DNA of 64,000 nucleotides from Halovivax gelatinilyticus. GTDB lineage: Archaea; Halobacteriota; Halobacteria; Halobacteriales; Natrialbaceae. The notes under the pieces are model-generated. The model saw nothing but the letters and a program-made list of their open reading frames with translations. It did not search any database and had not been told where the DNA came from. The translations under genes were made by a program, and so were the position numbers. The first letter of the stretch is position 1. Each line of letters opens with the position of its first letter. Shown here one piece after another: positions 15,402 through 43,283 of this stretch. The stretch spans positions 1,129,992 to 1,193,991 of the forward strand of contig NZ_CP101322.1 of assembly GCF_024300625.1 (NCBI RefSeq), in the 5' to 3' direction.

Positions 15402-15504
15402 GCCGAAGTAGCTCAGATGGTAGAGCACCTCGCTGTTACGGCGATACAGGGACCTGTTCGCCGCAGATACGAGGTTGTCCCAGGTTCGAGTCCTGGCTTC
15501 GGCG
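15402..15504 (+). tRNA. tRNA-Asn (anticodon GTT) with 30-nt intron
   Basis: The acceptor arm GCCGAAG pairs with CUUCGGC. The anticodon stem CCUCG (15428-15432) pairs with CGAGG (15470-15474). The anticodon GTT is at 15435-15437. The sequence between A37 (15438) and base 38 (15469) is a 30-base insert with perfect 6-bp arms CGGCGA/TCGCCG, the size and place of an archaeal bulge-helix-bulge intron. Removal gives a normal 73-base tRNA. The T arm is CCAGG-TTCGAGT-CCTGG. The 3' end is duplicated at 15657-15677. Confidence 0.88.
15439..15468 (+). other. tRNA-Asn intron (bulge-helix-bulge type)
   Basis: Thirty bases lie between positions 37 and 38 of the tRNA. CGGCGA and TCGCCG pair around a 13-base loop and the remaining bases can form the bulges recognised by the archaeal splicing endonuclease. 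The exact cut site may shift by a base because flanking bases repeat. Confidence 0.7.
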
Positions 15505-17649: not shown

Positions 17650-17755
17650 GGGCCCTTAGCTCAGTCTGGTAAGAGCGCTCGGCTCATAACGAACGTCGGT
17701 TTCGCCGGGTTCGGGAGATACCGAGTGGTCGTTGGTTCGAATCCGACAGGGCCCA
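17650..17755 (+). tRNA. elongator tRNA-Met (anticodon CAT) with 31-nt intron
   Basis: The acceptor arm GGGCCCU pairs with AGGGCCC and the discriminator is A. The anticodon stem CUCGG pairs with CCGAG (17721-17725). The anticodon CAT is at 17685-17687. A 31-base insert follows A37. The T arm is GUUGG-UUCGAAU-CCGAC. Elongator tRNA-Met carries an intron at this place in haloarchaea, which supports Met over tRNA-Ile2. Removal leaves 75 bases. Confidence 0.9.
17689..17719 (+). other. tRNA-Met intron
   Basis: A 31-base insert between anticodon-loop positions 37 and 38. It contains short arms able to form the bulge-helix-bulge splice substrate. It is shorter than the intron I recall for this tRNA in Haloferax. 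The boundary may shift by one base. Confidence 0.68.
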
Positions 17756-26586: not shown

Positions 26587-26866
26587 CAGTAGAATATCAT
26601 ATTGATCCGAAATGAATCTTCGTATCTATCCGGGATATCTACATCAATACCGACAGTCGAGATTGGACTAAGTGAGCGAATCGGTGGCGGGTTGACTGCG
26701 AACCCATTGCTCACACTTCCAAAATTGTGTCGAACCAAATCCCAATCCAGTAGAGAAGATCGAGCAACACAGTCTAATGTTCTTAACCCAGAAACGACCC
26801 ACAACTAACATTCCTAAAACTATCCTAATTTCCAGTAGATATAATATGCTGCAGTGCCACAATTCA
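26587..26866. other. AT-rich intergenic region with divergent promoters
   Basis: No supported gene. Composition is clearly AT-richer than the chromosome average. At 26838-26848 GATATAATATG is a TATA box for the plus-strand leader RNA that follows; a minus-strand promoter for the PD-(D/E)XK gene must lie in the left part. Confidence 0.45.
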
Positions 26867-26966
26867 CGTGGAAGCCACTCGCTCTGGCTCACCGGAGTGG
26901 GCAGAAATGCCCCGGGTGCTGAAGACACCCGAGACGTGGCTTCCGAAACCCGTCGGAGGGTTTTCA
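26867..26966 (+). ncRNA. candidate structured leader RNA, copy 1
   Basis: The transcript should start near 26868, about 25 bases after the TATA box. Predicted helices: P1 GGAAGCCAC (26870-26878) with GTGGCTTCC (26936-26944), 9 perfect pairs; inside it P2 CTCTGG/CCGGAG (26882-26897, one G-U), P3 GGGCA-GAAA-TGCCC (26899-26912) and P4 CGGGTG/CACCCG (26913-26931). A further hairpin P5 (GAAACCC/GGGTTTTC, 26945-26965) ends 7 bases before the ATG at 26973. The closed multi-helix junction followed by a hairpin at the start codon resembles a riboswitch or protein-binding leader. A homologue lies at 42766-42866. Confidence 0.6.
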
Positions 26967-26972
26967 TCAGCC

Positions 26973-27320
26973 ATGACACGCTATACACCAGACCACCATA
27001 AACCCCGCGCACAGCCCGCGTATCCTCGATTCACGGTGACTACCAAGTTTCTCGATTCGAGACGGTCTACCCACATCCCAGCCACCTACACCGCACCCAC
27101 CGGCCCAACCGAGGACCGCCTCTTCGTCACCGTAGACCGCCCGACGGACCCGTACCGGTACGGCATCGTCTCCAGAGACCGCTACCCACCGTGTCCGAGT
27201 TGCACCGAACCCGTCATCACGATCAGGACGCTGGGACCACATCGACACACCGCCGATCCCTGCGGCTGCGCGTTAGACGCCCATACGGTCGCCCACTTTC
27301 TGCGAGGGCCCCGAAGATGA
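26973..27320 (+). CDS. small Cys/His-cluster protein downstream of leader RNA
   Basis: Starts MTRYTPDHHKPRAQPA at the ATG following hairpin P5; longer upstream starts would run through the structured leader. The 115-residue protein is Pro/Arg/Thr-rich. It ends with a putative zinc site CPSCTEPV (C-x2-C) followed by PHRHTADPCGC. It shares this C-terminal motif with the 51-residue protein encoded next, which begins inside its stop codon (ATGA). Function unknown; nucleic-acid or zinc binding is a guess from composition. Confidence 0.6.
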   Translation: MTRYTPDHHKPRAQPAYPRFTVTTKFLDSRRSTHIPATYTAPTGPTEDRLFVTVDRPTDPYRYGIVSRDRYPPCPSCTEPVITIRTLGPHRHTADPCGCALDAHTVAHFLRGPRR

Positions 27321-27472
27321 CCGAACCGGACCTAGAGAACTGCCCGTTCCCGTTGTGTCCGTTCTGTGAGACGCCGGTCGTCAGTATCACCTCCACGGGG
27401 CCACACTCTCACTCCGCCAGTCCCTGTGGCTGCGGACTCACACTCACCGACGTCCAGGAGATGCAAGGGTAG
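27317..27472 (+). CDS. 51-residue zinc-finger-like microprotein
   Basis: ATG overlaps the preceding stop (ATGA). Cysteines in CPFPLCPFC and PCGC plus PHSHS histidines suggest a single zinc site: C-x2-C then H-x-H-x4-PCGC. The last 30 codons and 20 bases beyond recur as a diverged copy at 29076-29180. Haloarchaea encode many such one-domain zinc microproteins. No function is known to me. Confidence 0.62.
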   Translation: MTEPDLENCPFPLCPFCETPVVSITSTGPHSHSASPCGCGLTLTDVQEMQG

Positions 27473-27495
27473 ACCAACCGCCAGAGCGAGACACC
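27389..27495 (+). repeat. long direct repeat flanking MNT/HEPN copy B, left copy
   Basis: About 105 bp covering the 3' end of the 51-residue gene and its downstream sequence (ATGCAAGGGTAGACCAACCG included) match 29076-29180 with scattered substitutions. The pair encloses the second nucleotidyltransferase/HEPN module. The rest of 27473-27753 holds no supported gene. Confidence 0.72.
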
Positions 27496-27753
27496 GCACC
27501 AGGTGTGTCTCCGAAATACGCACAGAACCGATCCGAACAGCTCGGCCTGCCGACGACACTGAATCGATCCGATCGACCCCCGAGTCGCCCACCGACCGGC
27601 CGGCCCGATCGCCGTCGTGCGAGCGAGGCTGCGTCCCGGCAGCCAGCGCTCGAGAGCTCACTATCGCAGTGTCCTGTACCACCAGCGGTTCGAATTGCAG
27701 ACCTGGTGCCGGTGAACGGAATACTTAATGTGTTATGAACCCCAAGACGATTC

Positions 27754-28443
27754 ATGAACACCGATACCGTTCAATCAACGGGCGAATGCGAGGGGACCCA
27801 TATCTGTCTCCCGATCCCGCTCGGTGACCGTGACGCGTTCCGGTACCGCGCGACGACTGACATCCTCCACGTACTCGCGGATAACCCCGACGCGACCTTC
27901 TCGAACCGCGAGCTTCACAGGCTGACCGGAAACGGGCTGTCGAACGTGAACGCCGCCGTCCTCTCGCTCGAAGCGCTCGGCGTCATTCGTGTAGACCGCG
28001 ACGGTCGGGCAAATTCCGTGCGGATCAACCCGGCGAAACTCGTTCGGAGCGACGATCCAGTTACCACGATCTCACAATCCGAGTACCACGAGCCGGTTCG
28101 GGCCGCGTTGAACCGGCTCGTAGATCGCGTCGGTGATGACGCAGCAATTGTGTTGTTCGGGAGTGTCGCTCGCGGCGACGCCGACCGAGCGAGCGATATC
28201 GACGTATTCGTCGTCGTCGATGATGGTCGAATGGCGGCCCAGCGAGCGGCTCACGGCATCGAAGAGGAAATCGCGTCGGAATCGTTCGACGGAGATCGGT
28301 TCGAACCGCACATCGTTGTCGAGACGCGCGACTCGGCGGTGACGCACGACCGAATCCGCGACGTGCTCGTAGAGGGGATTACGCTGCACGACGCCCCGGT
28401 CCTCGACGCGGTGAAAGAGGAGGTGGTCACGGATGGGGCTTGA
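27754..28443 (+). CDS. winged-helix plus MNT nucleotidyltransferase antitoxin (copy B)
   Basis: Same architecture as the protein at 19014-19670: wHTH (about 30-90, FSNRELHRLTGNGLSNVNAAVLSLEALGV) and MNT domain (about 110-225) with FGSVARGDADRASDIDVFVVV. Both start with a L-LP-P-----FRY motif. The metal-site Asp pair is intact. It overlaps the HEPN gene by 11 bases. TACTTAATGTG around 27722-27732 is a likely promoter. Role: antitoxin that modifies and neutralises the HEPN partner and probably represses the operon. Confidence 0.85.
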   Translation: MNTDTVQSTGECEGTHICLPIPLGDRDAFRYRATTDILHVLADNPDATFSNRELHRLTGNGLSNVNAAVLSLEALGVIRVDRDGRANSVRINPAKLVRSDDPVTTISQSEYHEPVRAALNRLVDRVGDDAAIVLFGSVARGDADRASDIDVFVVVDDGRMAAQRAAHGIEEEIASESFDGDRFEPHIVVETRDSAVTHDRIRDVLVEGITLHDAPVLDAVKEEVVTDGA

Positions 28444-28951
28444 AGACGTCGTCGACGCGGTCGAGTGCGTCGAGTCGTTGTTAGCAGACGGGGAGACAGG
28501 CCCGGTCCAGGATTCGCTCTCGTGGCAGGAAACGGATGCTGATGTGCAGCTAGGAAAAGCGTGTGCGATGCTAGGGACGTGCCGGCAGTTACGCAGCGGG
28601 ACGAACAACTACGTCAGTATCGTCGAGTTGTCGTTCAACGCAATCGAACGGTCGTTCCAGTTTTACTTGGTGGAGCAAACGGCGGCTGAGTCGTCTGATT
28701 TCCGAACGCACGAGCAAGTGTTCGAGGACATCGAGCGACGGGGAGTGTTCTCTGATACGGGCGTCCCTGCCCGGATCGACGCGTTCCGATCGGAGCATCG
28801 TGCCCGGATATATTACGATGTGGACCGCCCTGGCCGAGATCTAGCGATTGGAATGTACGAACTAGCCGAGGCAGTTCACTCGTACGTCGTTGCGTTCGCC
28901 AACGCGCACTCTCGATGTAACTGCGAGCAACGACACGAGAACGAGTTCTGA
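28433..28951 (+). CDS. HEPN-domain toxin (copy B)
   Basis: Helical 172-residue paralogue of the protein at 18535-19017, aligned through YVSIVELSFNAIERSFQFY and HRARIYYD. The canonical R-x4-6-H is again R-x3-YY, so if it is an RNase its active site differs from textbook HEPN toxins. It starts 11 bases before the end of the MNT gene. The tyrosines next to the conserved Arg are candidates for AMPylation by the partner, by analogy with HepT/MntA. Confidence 0.8.
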   Translation: MGLEDVVDAVECVESLLADGETGPVQDSLSWQETDADVQLGKACAMLGTCRQLRSGTNNYVSIVELSFNAIERSFQFYLVEQTAAESSDFRTHEQVFEDIERRGVFSDTGVPARIDAFRSEHRARIYYDVDRPGRDLAIGMYELAEAVHSYVVAFANAHSRCNCEQRHENEF

Positions 28952-29075
28952 CGATACGACGCGGCGTGCGAGAGTACTCGATCCGTGAGTCTATCACGCT
29001 CCCGTCGAACGAAAGGTGGCGCCATTGTCGGTGGATATTCCTGACCCATACCCGTCACCGGTGGTAAGGCGGTTC

Positions 29076-29180
29076 ACTTCCACGGGGCCACACTTGCACT
29101 CGGCGAGTCCCTGTGGCTGTGGCCTGACGCTCGCCGACGTTCAGGAGATGCAAGGGTAGACCAACCGCCAGAGAGACACC
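29076..29180 (+). pseudogene. truncated duplicate of the 51-residue zinc microprotein gene (right repeat copy)
   Basis: Encodes only the tail TSTGPHLHSASPCGCGLTL-DVQEMQG before a stop, with no start codon or first Cys pair. It matches 27389-27495. It probably arose by duplication or insertion of the intervening module. The region 28952-29261 has no other supported gene. Confidence 0.65.
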
Positions 29181-41944: not shown

Positions 41945-42340
41945 TCAGTACGATTCGACGGTGAGGCCATCGACATGCTCGAAGTCCCCATCGTTCGTGA
42001 CGATCGCTTCCTCGTAGACGAGTCCGGTGGCCGCGACGATCGCGTCTGCCGGTCCGAGATTCGGCTTCGAGTCGCTCGTCAGGTGCGCACCCTCGACCGT
42101 GCCCGCCCGCCTGGCGATTCGTTCGTCGAGCGGGACGACCGGCTTGTTCGCCACGAGCGCGTCGTATACCAGAGCGTTCTCCGCCGGCGTGGCTCCCGCT
42201 CCGACCCCGACGTAGAGTTCTTCGACGACGACCGTCGGAACGCGGGTGGGGACGCCAGCGGCTTCGAAATCCGCGGCGAGCGCAAGCGCGGCGTCTTCTT
42301 CGGCCCTGAGCGAGATGAGAAACTCGGTGTCGAGGATCAT
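41945..42340 (-). CDS. vapC: VapC-family PIN-domain toxin
   Basis: MILDTEFLISLRAEED starts the PIN domain with the first catalytic Asp, VVEELYVGV gives the Glu, and LGPADAIVAATGLVYEEAIVTNDGDFEHV gives the later acidic residues. All four acidic positions appear present. The ATG overlaps the antitoxin stop (4 bases). Expected to be an Mg2+-dependent site-specific RNase, possibly acting on tRNA. Confidence 0.87.
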   Translation of the reverse strand: MILDTEFLISLRAEEDAALALAADFEAAGVPTRVPTVVVEELYVGVGAGATPAENALVYDALVANKPVVPLDERIARRAGTVEGAHLTSDSKPNLGPADAIVAATGLVYEEAIVTNDGDFEHVDGLTVESY

Positions 42341-42582
42341 TCTCCGTCCGCACCCACCCGGTCGAGGAGTTTTCGGCGGTCTTCGGCGGCGGTTTCCTCG
42401 GAGCGTTCGAGCAGGTCCCGGTGGCGCGCCGCATCCTCGTCGGTGTACCCGCCCGCGAAGTCGAGAAGCGAGTAGTCCGACGTGAGTCGGTCGATCGCCG
42501 CCGAAAACGTCTCGTCCTCGCGCTTTTTCGACTTGATGCGCTCGTAGACGTCTTCGTCGAGTCTGACCGTCTTCGTGGCCAT
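42337..42582 (-). CDS. vapB: VapB-family antitoxin (DUF217/UPF0330-like)
   Basis: The start MATKTVRLDEDVYERIKSKKREDETFSAAIDRL at 42582 fits archaeal VapB antitoxins of this family; the N-terminal part binds DNA and the acidic C-terminal part wraps VapC. Length of 81 is usual. An exact palindrome overlaps the start region and suggests autoregulation. Confidence 0.83.
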   Translation of the reverse strand: MATKTVRLDEDVYERIKSKKREDETFSAAIDRLTSDYSLLDFAGGYTDEDAARHRDLLERSEETAAEDRRKLLDRVGADGE

Positions 42583-42584
42583 GT

Positions 42585-42599
42585 GTATACGTCGTATAC
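42585..42599 (-). promoter_or_regulatory. VapBC operator palindrome
   Basis: GTATAC-GTC-GTATAC is a perfect inverted repeat beginning 3 bases upstream of the vapB ATG. Antitoxin binding here would block initiation of a leaderless transcript. Confidence 0.6.
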
Positions 42600-42765
42600 G
42601 AGAGACGGTCAATCTTTCGCCGGCCGGCGTTCGATCGCTTGCGTACACGCCGGACTAGGCGTTCTCAACGGTTCTGATCAGTACGCGGGTCTCGAAGGGG
42701 ACCCCGATACCGCCACGTGTAACAGCGATCGGTAGATACATAATAATTGACTCATAACGGTTGAA

Positions 42766-42866
42766 CGGAAGCGGCGCTCCATCGTTCGCGCGGGGACATG
42801 CGCAGAAAATGTCCCGGGTGGGTCCAGCACCCGAGACGTGGCTTCCGAAAACCATGAGGGGTTTTC
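42766..42866 (+). ncRNA. candidate structured leader RNA, copy 2
   Basis: Homologue of the leader at 26867-26966. A TATA-like GATACATAATAATT (42735-42748) lies about 25 bases upstream. P1 is CGGAAGC (42766-42772) with GCTTCCG (42841-42847). P2 is GCGC/GCGC (42774-42791), weaker than in copy 1. P3 is GGGACAT/ATGTCCC (42793-42815) around GCGCAGAAA. P4 is GGGTG/CACCC (42816-42832). P5 is GAAAACC/GGTTTTC (42847-42866), 7 bases before the ATG at 42874. Shared unpaired or invariant segments are GCAGAAA and GAGACGTGGCTTCCGAAA. P3 sequences differ between copies but pair in both. Confidence 0.6.
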
Positions 42867-42873
42867 AGTCACC

Positions 42874-42993
42874 ATGGTACGCTACAAACCTTCGAGACAA
42901 AAAGGTCTCGCACGACTGCGGTATCGACAGCGAACGCTACGTCCGGTCGAAATCGTATTTTCCAAACCGGCACGGGCGGAGGATCGTCGATGA
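42874..42993 (+). CDS. 39-residue basic microprotein downstream of leader RNA
   Basis: MVRYKPSRQKGLARLRYR followed by an Arg-rich tail ending AEDRR. It starts right after hairpin P5 of the leader, like MTRYTP at 26973, and its stop overlaps the next ATG (ATGA). It could be a leader peptide or a small nucleic-acid binding protein. Too short to judge by composition; the conserved context is the main support. Confidence 0.5.
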   Translation: MVRYKPSRQKGLARLRYRQRTLRPVEIVFSKPARAEDRR

Positions 42994-43283
42994 CCGACAA
43001 CCCGTTCTGTTACCGGTGTAACGACTCGCTCGACGGTTGCCACTGGATTCGCCTCACGACGGAGCACCGCGGCGCGGTCGCCGACAACTACCGCGACGTC
43101 GAGCGGTTCGTCTGTCCCGACTGCCTGGCCGCGATCGGGTTGCTCGAGATCGAACGGTCGGCCGATCCGGCCCGAACGACCGAAGCGCCGACGGACGTCC
43201 CCGGACAACCGGGCGTTCGATCCAAACCGGAGACGCCAACCCGACGGACGCCGTCTGAACGATCACCAGGGACGCGACGCTGA
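42990..43283 (+). CDS. zinc-ribbon-like small protein
   Basis: The first 55 residues hold two Cys pairs, FCYRCNDSLDGCHW (C-x2-C and a further Cys) and RFVCPDCLAA (C-x2-C), a likely treble-clef or zinc-ribbon site. The last 40 residues are a Pro/Thr/Arg-rich disordered tail. It is the second gene of the leader-RNA micro-operon and the positional counterpart of the 51-residue protein at 27317. Function unknown. Confidence 0.65.
   Translation: MTDNPFCYRCNDSLDGCHWIRLTTEHRGAVADNYRDVERFVCPDCLAAIGLLEIERSADPARTTEAPTDVPGQPGVRSKPETPTRRTPSERSPGTRR

Follow-up and report, generated by a model that had tools for sequence, protein, structure and literature searches.

Translational riboswitches with an alternative start-site helix have a junction-closing helix, P1, that competes with a helix hiding the start of translation, and the haloarchaeal leader RNA described here is predicted to be alike in this respect. 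It differs from them in that it has no known ligand and no Rfam match, precedes small zinc-finger genes, carries a conserved hairpin inside the coding region, and shows no Shine-Dalgarno sequence. According to a 2021 paper, experiments had until then established just one natural riboswitch in archaea, the fluoride riboswitch of Thermococcus kodakarensis (PMC8241225). Ribosomal-protein leaders, including those of archaeal S15, eL15 and L4 (PMC7247131), are also structured leaders opening operons for small proteins. The haloarchaeal leader, in contrast, is present in 25-30 copies per genome, precedes no recognised ribosomal protein gene and has a built-in alternative start-codon helix. In mRNAs of the hok/Sok type, pairing with the RNA 5′ end controls access to the start region, again a likeness to our leader, for which, however, no antisense RNA and no hydrophobic toxin were found. 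Finally, the zinc-finger micro-proteins HVO_2753 and HVO_0758 of Haloferax volcanii (PMC10716476) are, like the products considered below, tiny haloarchaeal proteins with two CxxC-type motifs. Homology has not been established, and the abstract of that paper mentions no such leader.

We analysed a 64,000-nucleotide stretch of the Halovivax gelatinilyticus genome (hereafter the window; NZ_CP101322.1, positions 1,129,992 to 1,193,991). An initial annotation of it, made without database searches, had claimed two copies of a leader RNA 16 kb apart with compensatory base changes and similar promoters. Both copies held and their coordinates were confirmed (Table 1), as were the quoted sequences of P3 (GGGCA/TGCCC in copy 1, GGGACAT/ATGTCCC in copy 2) and P5 (GAAACCC/GGGTTTTC and GAAAACC/GGTTTTC, respectively). 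The promoter-like sequence of copy 2 matches the consensus more weakly. The fold of the copy 1 leader was better than all 200 dinucleotide shuffles (z -4.6), while that of copy 2 was less clear (z -2.0; 9 of 200 shuffles as good). A longer near-identical mobile repeat, named by the annotation as the alternative, fails for this pair: the two loci have a single stretch of 95 nt at 80% identity in common, and therefore are not copies of one recent mobile repeat. The annotation did not contain the scale of about 25 copies, the coding-region hairpin P6, the downstream zinc-finger operon, or the ability of the P1 3′ strand to pair instead with the start-codon region.

Table 1. Features of the two leader copies and their operons (positions in the window)
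Feature	Position	Strand	Evidence or remark
Copy 1 promoter (CAGTAGATATAATA)	26833..26846	+	Motif exactly 32 nt before P1 in 71/79 scored copies
Leader RNA, copy 1	26870..26975	+	CM R1 100.1 bits; fold z -4.6
Copy 1 P1	26870-26879/26935-26944	+	
Copy 1 P3	26899-26903/26908-26912	+	
Copy 1 P4	26914-26918/26926-26930	+	
Copy 1 P5	26946-26951/26958-26963	+	
Copy 1 ATG	26973-26975	+	
Copy 1 start-codon segment able to form P1*	26967..26975	+	7 P1* pairs in the fold without the 5′ strand
Copy 1 ORF1, 115 aa, class B, own Cys4 zinc motif	26973..27320	+	dN/dS 0.19-0.39 after codon 18, four paralogue pairs
Copy 1 ORF2, 51 aa zinc ribbon, ATGA overlap	27317..27472	+	dN/dS 0.02-0.20
Copy 2 promoter-like sequence (CGGTAGATACATAATAA)	42730..42746	+	Weaker consensus match
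Leader RNA, copy 2	42767..42876	+	CM R1 86.8 bits
Copy 2 P1	42767-42776/42837-42846	+	
Copy 2 P3	42793-42799/42809-42815	+	
Copy 2 P4	42816-42820/42828-42832	+	
Copy 2 P5	42847-42853/42860-42866	+	
Copy 2 ATG	42874-42876	+	
Copy 2 P6, coding-region hairpin CGAGAC-AAAAAG-GTCTCG, ORF1 nt 20-37	42893..42910	+	Covariation, fixed position
Copy 2 ORF1, 39 aa, class A (MVRYKPSRQKGLARLRYRQR...)	42874..42993	+	
Copy 2 ORF2, 97 aa, CYRC...CPDC zinc protein, ATGA overlap	42990..43283	+	AlphaFold2 pLDDT 78

The count of two proved to be an underestimate. A combined pattern and BLAST search gave more than 20 leader copies in the 3.70-Mb Halovivax genome, and a covariance model built from 19 of the found copies gave 25, with 24-32 in each of four sister species and 0-30 per genome in other genera of Natrialbaceae. 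A scan of named genomes returned matches in Halovivax, Natrinema, Halopiger, Natronobiforma, Natrialba, Halostagnicola and others, all of which we take to be Natrialbaceae. Matches were also confined to Natrialbaceae when the phylum was searched at E up to 1e-5; given the thin sample and strict filters, this does not show absence elsewhere. An improved covariance model (R2, 144 positions) found copies in 62 Natrialbaceae genomes, plus weaker ones in 45 genomes from other families of haloarchaea. The leader of these other haloarchaea, Haladaptatus among them, is diverged, and in Haladaptatus it is found on many plasmids. Single plasmids, for example NZ_CP085302.1 and NZ_CP085339.1, carry up to eight diverged copies, and among related plasmid copies several overlap genes that bear the annotation SWIM zinc finger family protein. 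Viral contigs and phage records gave no match to the leader. In Rfam 15 no family reached the gathering threshold for the leader, only tRNAs passing and the best sub-threshold matches being unrelated, and relaxing the cut-off to E 10 brought no Rfam riboswitch match for the window copies. The tRNA matches at 15402-15504 and 17650-17755 of the window are about 103-106 nt long, suggesting intron-containing tRNA genes. Some copies are aberrant: L013 lacks the 5′ part, and L010 (2983-3089) has ATA in place of ATG, with an extra nested hairpin in its P3 loop and an intact zinc ORF2. Another copy, L020, adjoins an apparent CRISPR array from about position 2400 (repeat with GTTTCAATTCCGTTGTGGATTTTCTCCCTGCTGCGAC).

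From 5′ to 3′ the elements are the promoter, P1, a variable stretch, P3, P4, the 3′ strand of P1, P5, the ATG and, within the coding region, P6. The spacing between the promoter consensus, CAGTAGATATAAG, and P1 is fixed (Table 1), with variable bases in between. Archaeal TATA elements lie at a usual distance from the transcription start, and we used this distance to place the start of the transcript. Taken together with the fixed 32-nt spacing, it implies that the transcript should begin at P1; we therefore infer initiation at or within a few bases of P1. Across 86 copies two-sided changes were seen in 12 of 21 pairs (102 cells against 27 expected), and none of 500 shuffles scored as high; P1 and P5 had many such changes. 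In the 45 alignable copies, two pairs of P3 and three of P6 covaried. P4 (GGGTG/CACCC) is invariant in the close set, and in distant copies it changes together with its partner, as in L268 (GACGTG/CACGTC). Diverged copies likewise have an altered P1 with pairing kept (GGAAGACCGG/CCGGTCTTCC; GAAGGTCGTT/..GGCCTTC). The annotation's claim of a structured leader under selection is supported, through covariation across about 100 copies, and its compensatory changes held for P3 and P5; P1 and P6 show such changes too, and P4 is neither supported nor contradicted in the close set. The core nucleotides CCCGGGUG and CACCCGAGAC are invariant, and the P3-P4 core stays constant across copies while the zinc proteins behind it differ widely. 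One criterion for a riboswitch, an mRNA leader whose conserved junction has covarying helices, is fulfilled.

Each leader opens a short ORF1, conserved over its first 18 or so codons and variable in its tail, which usually overlaps ORF2 through ATGA. ORF2 encodes a small protein with two Cys-pair motifs (CPxCGxPV..GP....PCGC or CYRCGD...CPDCLAAIGLLE). A Cys-pair motif was present just downstream in 73 of 84 copies, and for about 11 of the 84 no zinc-finger gene was found. In class B, ORF1 has a zinc motif of its own, and both ORFs are under purifying selection. As for class A, 16 of the 17 zinc proteins of this class in the genome sit behind the leader RNA. In Haladaptatus and others, SWIM zinc-finger genes follow the leader. 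AlphaFold2 modelled the class A ORF2 as a small zinc fold (pLDDT 78). Its matches to eS26 were all weak (sequence E 0.25-0.31; Foldseek E 0.4-2; best Z 3.7, tied with unrelated rows) and PF01283 (eS26) is absent from the genome; we do not claim ORF2 as a relative of eS26. No ribosomal family was found among the downstream proteins in Pfam, leaving the criterion for a ribosomal-protein leader unmet, and no metabolic or transport gene was recognised directly behind the copies examined. We saw no Shine-Dalgarno sequence ahead of these start codons. A Cas protein suspected downstream of L281 had no NCBIfam match.

The P6 stretch is kept by selection on the RNA, as distinct from constraint on the protein. 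Most copies read CTC, CCC or CGC at codon 12 of ORF1: the variable second base covaries with its P6 partner, and the third position is C without exception (84 of 84). At codon 13, 74 of 84 copies use GCA, though GCA is the rarest alanine codon in ORF1 tails. Between class A pairs, dS is 0-0.17 in codons 1-18 of ORF1, against mostly 0.5-1.2 in the tail and in ORF2. Most of the distant copies have a hairpin in the place of P6, at ORF1 nt 18-21, with unrelated stems (GGGTCAC/GTGACCC, GGGCGTA/TACGCCC, GGGCTAT/GTAGCCC) and loops often resembling TTGAAC or ATAAAC. A pairing of the leader sequence CGAGAC with the coding sequence GGTCTCG was rejected, because relatives whose P6 is GGGA/TCCC still carry CGAGAC in the leader.

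The 3′ strand of P1 has two possible partners, namely the RNA 5′ end, forming P1, or the start-codon segment, forming a helix, P1*, with P5 at its tip. In distant copies the bases before the AUG track the P1 3′ strand: GGTCTTCC occurs with AGAAGACC-ATG, GGCTGTCTC with GAGAGCAGCC-ATG, GGCCTTCG with CGAAAGGCC-ATG, and GGCTTCC with GAAGCC-ATG. The mean complementary run in diverged copies was 6.9, as compared with 5.3 in swapped pairs, and none of 5,000 permutations was as high. Fourteen distant copies underlie this covariation, and of 15 distant sequences 4 failed to form P1* in the fold test. Within Natrialbaceae there is little variation in the P1 3′ strand, and the case for P1* there therefore rests on complementarity. 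Minimum-energy folds of 96 sequences contained P1 in 64 and P1* in 32, and every one contained one of the two; the median energy gap, -3.4 kcal/mol, favoured P1. When the first 12 nt were removed, P1* appeared in 88 of the 96, against about 25 expected with the seven pre-ATG bases shuffled. These energies apply to 37 °C and 1 M NaCl, not to the molar KCl of a haloarchaeal cell. The criterion of mutually exclusive start-site helices is satisfied by sequence and predicted folds, and at that level alone.

Toxin-antitoxin genes lie near some copies. Downstream of copy 1 lie a nucleotidyltransferase gene (PF01909) and a gene that is HEPN-like by eye, without a Pfam or NCBIfam match. On either side of this pair (window 27387-29179) the ORF2 end recurs as a direct repeat of 106 nt (27387-27492 and 29074-29179, 88% identical), and the pair looks inserted with partial duplication. 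A VapB/PIN toxin-antitoxin pair lies directly upstream of copy 2 (window 41945-42648), and in sister species G004 (about 329.3-330.3 kb) an 83% identical stretch lies beside a cassette that belongs to a different class. At L255:1400-10600 (G000:C1:1841500-1857500), leader-less zinc-ribbon gene fragments alternate with toxin-antitoxin modules (ParE/CopG-like, MNT/HepT, PIN and PemK-like) in an array adjoining an Orc1/Cdc6-like gene. Similar arrays are present in L259, L260 and L263, and arrays of ORF1/ORF2 fragments between toxin-antitoxin modules lie near other leader copies. Defence or toxin-antitoxin genes as the general neighbour were rejected on a mixed Pfam tally of 84 neighbouring ORFs (PIN 3, MarR 4, GNAT 3); since the general neighbourhood is mixed, the link holds at some loci only.

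The reading we favour, with a probability of about 0.62, is that the leader is a cis-acting bistable translational RNA switch for a small zinc-finger operon, whose trigger and action in cells are untested. In state A the RNA 5′ end would pair with the P1 3′ strand, closing the junction that holds P3 and P4; P5 would stand alone, and the AUG, unpaired between P5 and P6, would be accessible to the ribosome (inferred to be ON). In state B the P1 3′ strand would instead engage part of the AUG and the bases immediately ahead of it, P5 forming the tip, and the start codon would be hidden (inferred to be OFF). The balance would be set by something favouring or opposing the P1/P3/P4 junction, most likely a bound protein or small ligand. 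ORF1 would be translated first, and the ribosome then passed to ORF2 via the ATGA overlap. The sequence evidence covers the repeated occurrence, the covariation, P6, the promoter spacing, the gene linkage and the complementarity of both pairings. That both states form in cells, and that state A is the ON state, is inferred, without expression, probing or reporter data. The window copies both favour state A by about 7 kcal/mol, a preference that demands a strong trigger to be reversed and counts against the switch model. The copies for which no downstream zinc-finger gene was found, the truncated L013 and the ATA start of L010 weigh on the same side. A bolder reading, which we would not back at even odds, is a new haloarchaea-wide class of translational RNA switch. 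It would need no Shine-Dalgarno sequence, would exchange the RNA 5′ end for the start codon as pairing partner, and would jointly control 20-30 operons per genome for small zinc-finger proteins, some with links to toxin-antitoxin islands and plasmids.

Several other explanations can be set against the switch model. The leader could possibly be an autogenous operator, in which translation is set by binding of the operon's own zinc-finger proteins, or of a single housekeeping protein, at the P3/P4 junction or at the P5-AUG-P6 region; there are no binding data. This would be a variant of the switch model with a protein as the trigger, comparable to ribosomal-protein leaders. It is favoured by the position of the RNA, mostly ahead of small zinc-finger genes (albeit of several unrelated types), by the near-complete association of class A zinc proteins with it, and by the two conserved hairpins flanking the AUG. 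Against it, the zinc proteins are diverse (zinc ribbons, CYRC type, SWIM) and the P3-P4 core constant, so that one common factor fits better than 25 cognate ones. A riboswitch whose junction binds a small molecule or ion, zinc being the natural guess, and thereby stabilises P1 would account for the invariant core nucleotides and for an expression platform at the start codon. Ligand binding is hypothetical, and the lack of recognised metabolic or transport genes directly behind the examined copies, together with the lack of an Rfam riboswitch match to the window copies, speaks against this explanation, which we consider unlikely. Also improbable is a stable leader that does not switch and serves mRNA stability or steady translation, P1* being a by-product of a repeated GAAGCC motif. 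The preference for state A, in two thirds of the folds and by a wide margin in the window copies, speaks for it; the tracking of P1 3′ changes by the pre-AUG bases of distant copies, and a P1* frequency about threefold above the shuffled control, speak against it.

We consider it very unlikely that the leader belongs to a timed mRNA of the hok kind, in which P1 would form first during transcription and later refolding would hide the AUG of a toxic or selfish product. The near-equal energies of the two states and the toxin-antitoxin modules that adjoin several copies, the neighbourhood being rich in them in places, would fit. The products, however, resemble conserved zinc proteins, with purifying selection in class B, and no antisense RNA partner was found, although none was sought in RNA data. 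Recent spread of a mobile repeat, the likeness of copies being due to duplication alone, is all but excluded. For it stand the high copy number, the scattered positions, the plasmid copies, the 5′-truncated L013, and the likeness of some paralogues across entire operons (90% over 387 nt for copy 2 and L015; 86% over 665 nt for copy 1 and L016). Such likeness is, however, expected of a gene family spreading by duplication. The short common stretch of the window pair, the compensatory changes and the absence of any match in viral contigs or phages stand against it, as do alignments of 5 class B and 10 class A copies, which, without being a full boundary study, revealed no common ends or terminal repeats.

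We found no description of the leader in the literature searched, most subscription journals lying outside the search. A leader with mutually exclusive helices is of a known kind; what appears to be new is a class with a coding-region hairpin, this copy number and this setting. In archaea hardly any natural regulatory RNA switches are known, and start-codon choice by haloarchaea in the absence of a Shine-Dalgarno sequence is an open question. With dozens of natural variants, in which the start codon lies between two conserved hairpins and faces a competing helix, that question becomes directly testable. If the switch reading is true, the leader would provide a first handle on many uncharacterised small zinc-finger proteins of haloarchaea, which seemingly form one regulon in these genomes, and would suggest a widespread RNA switch in a group in which almost none is known.
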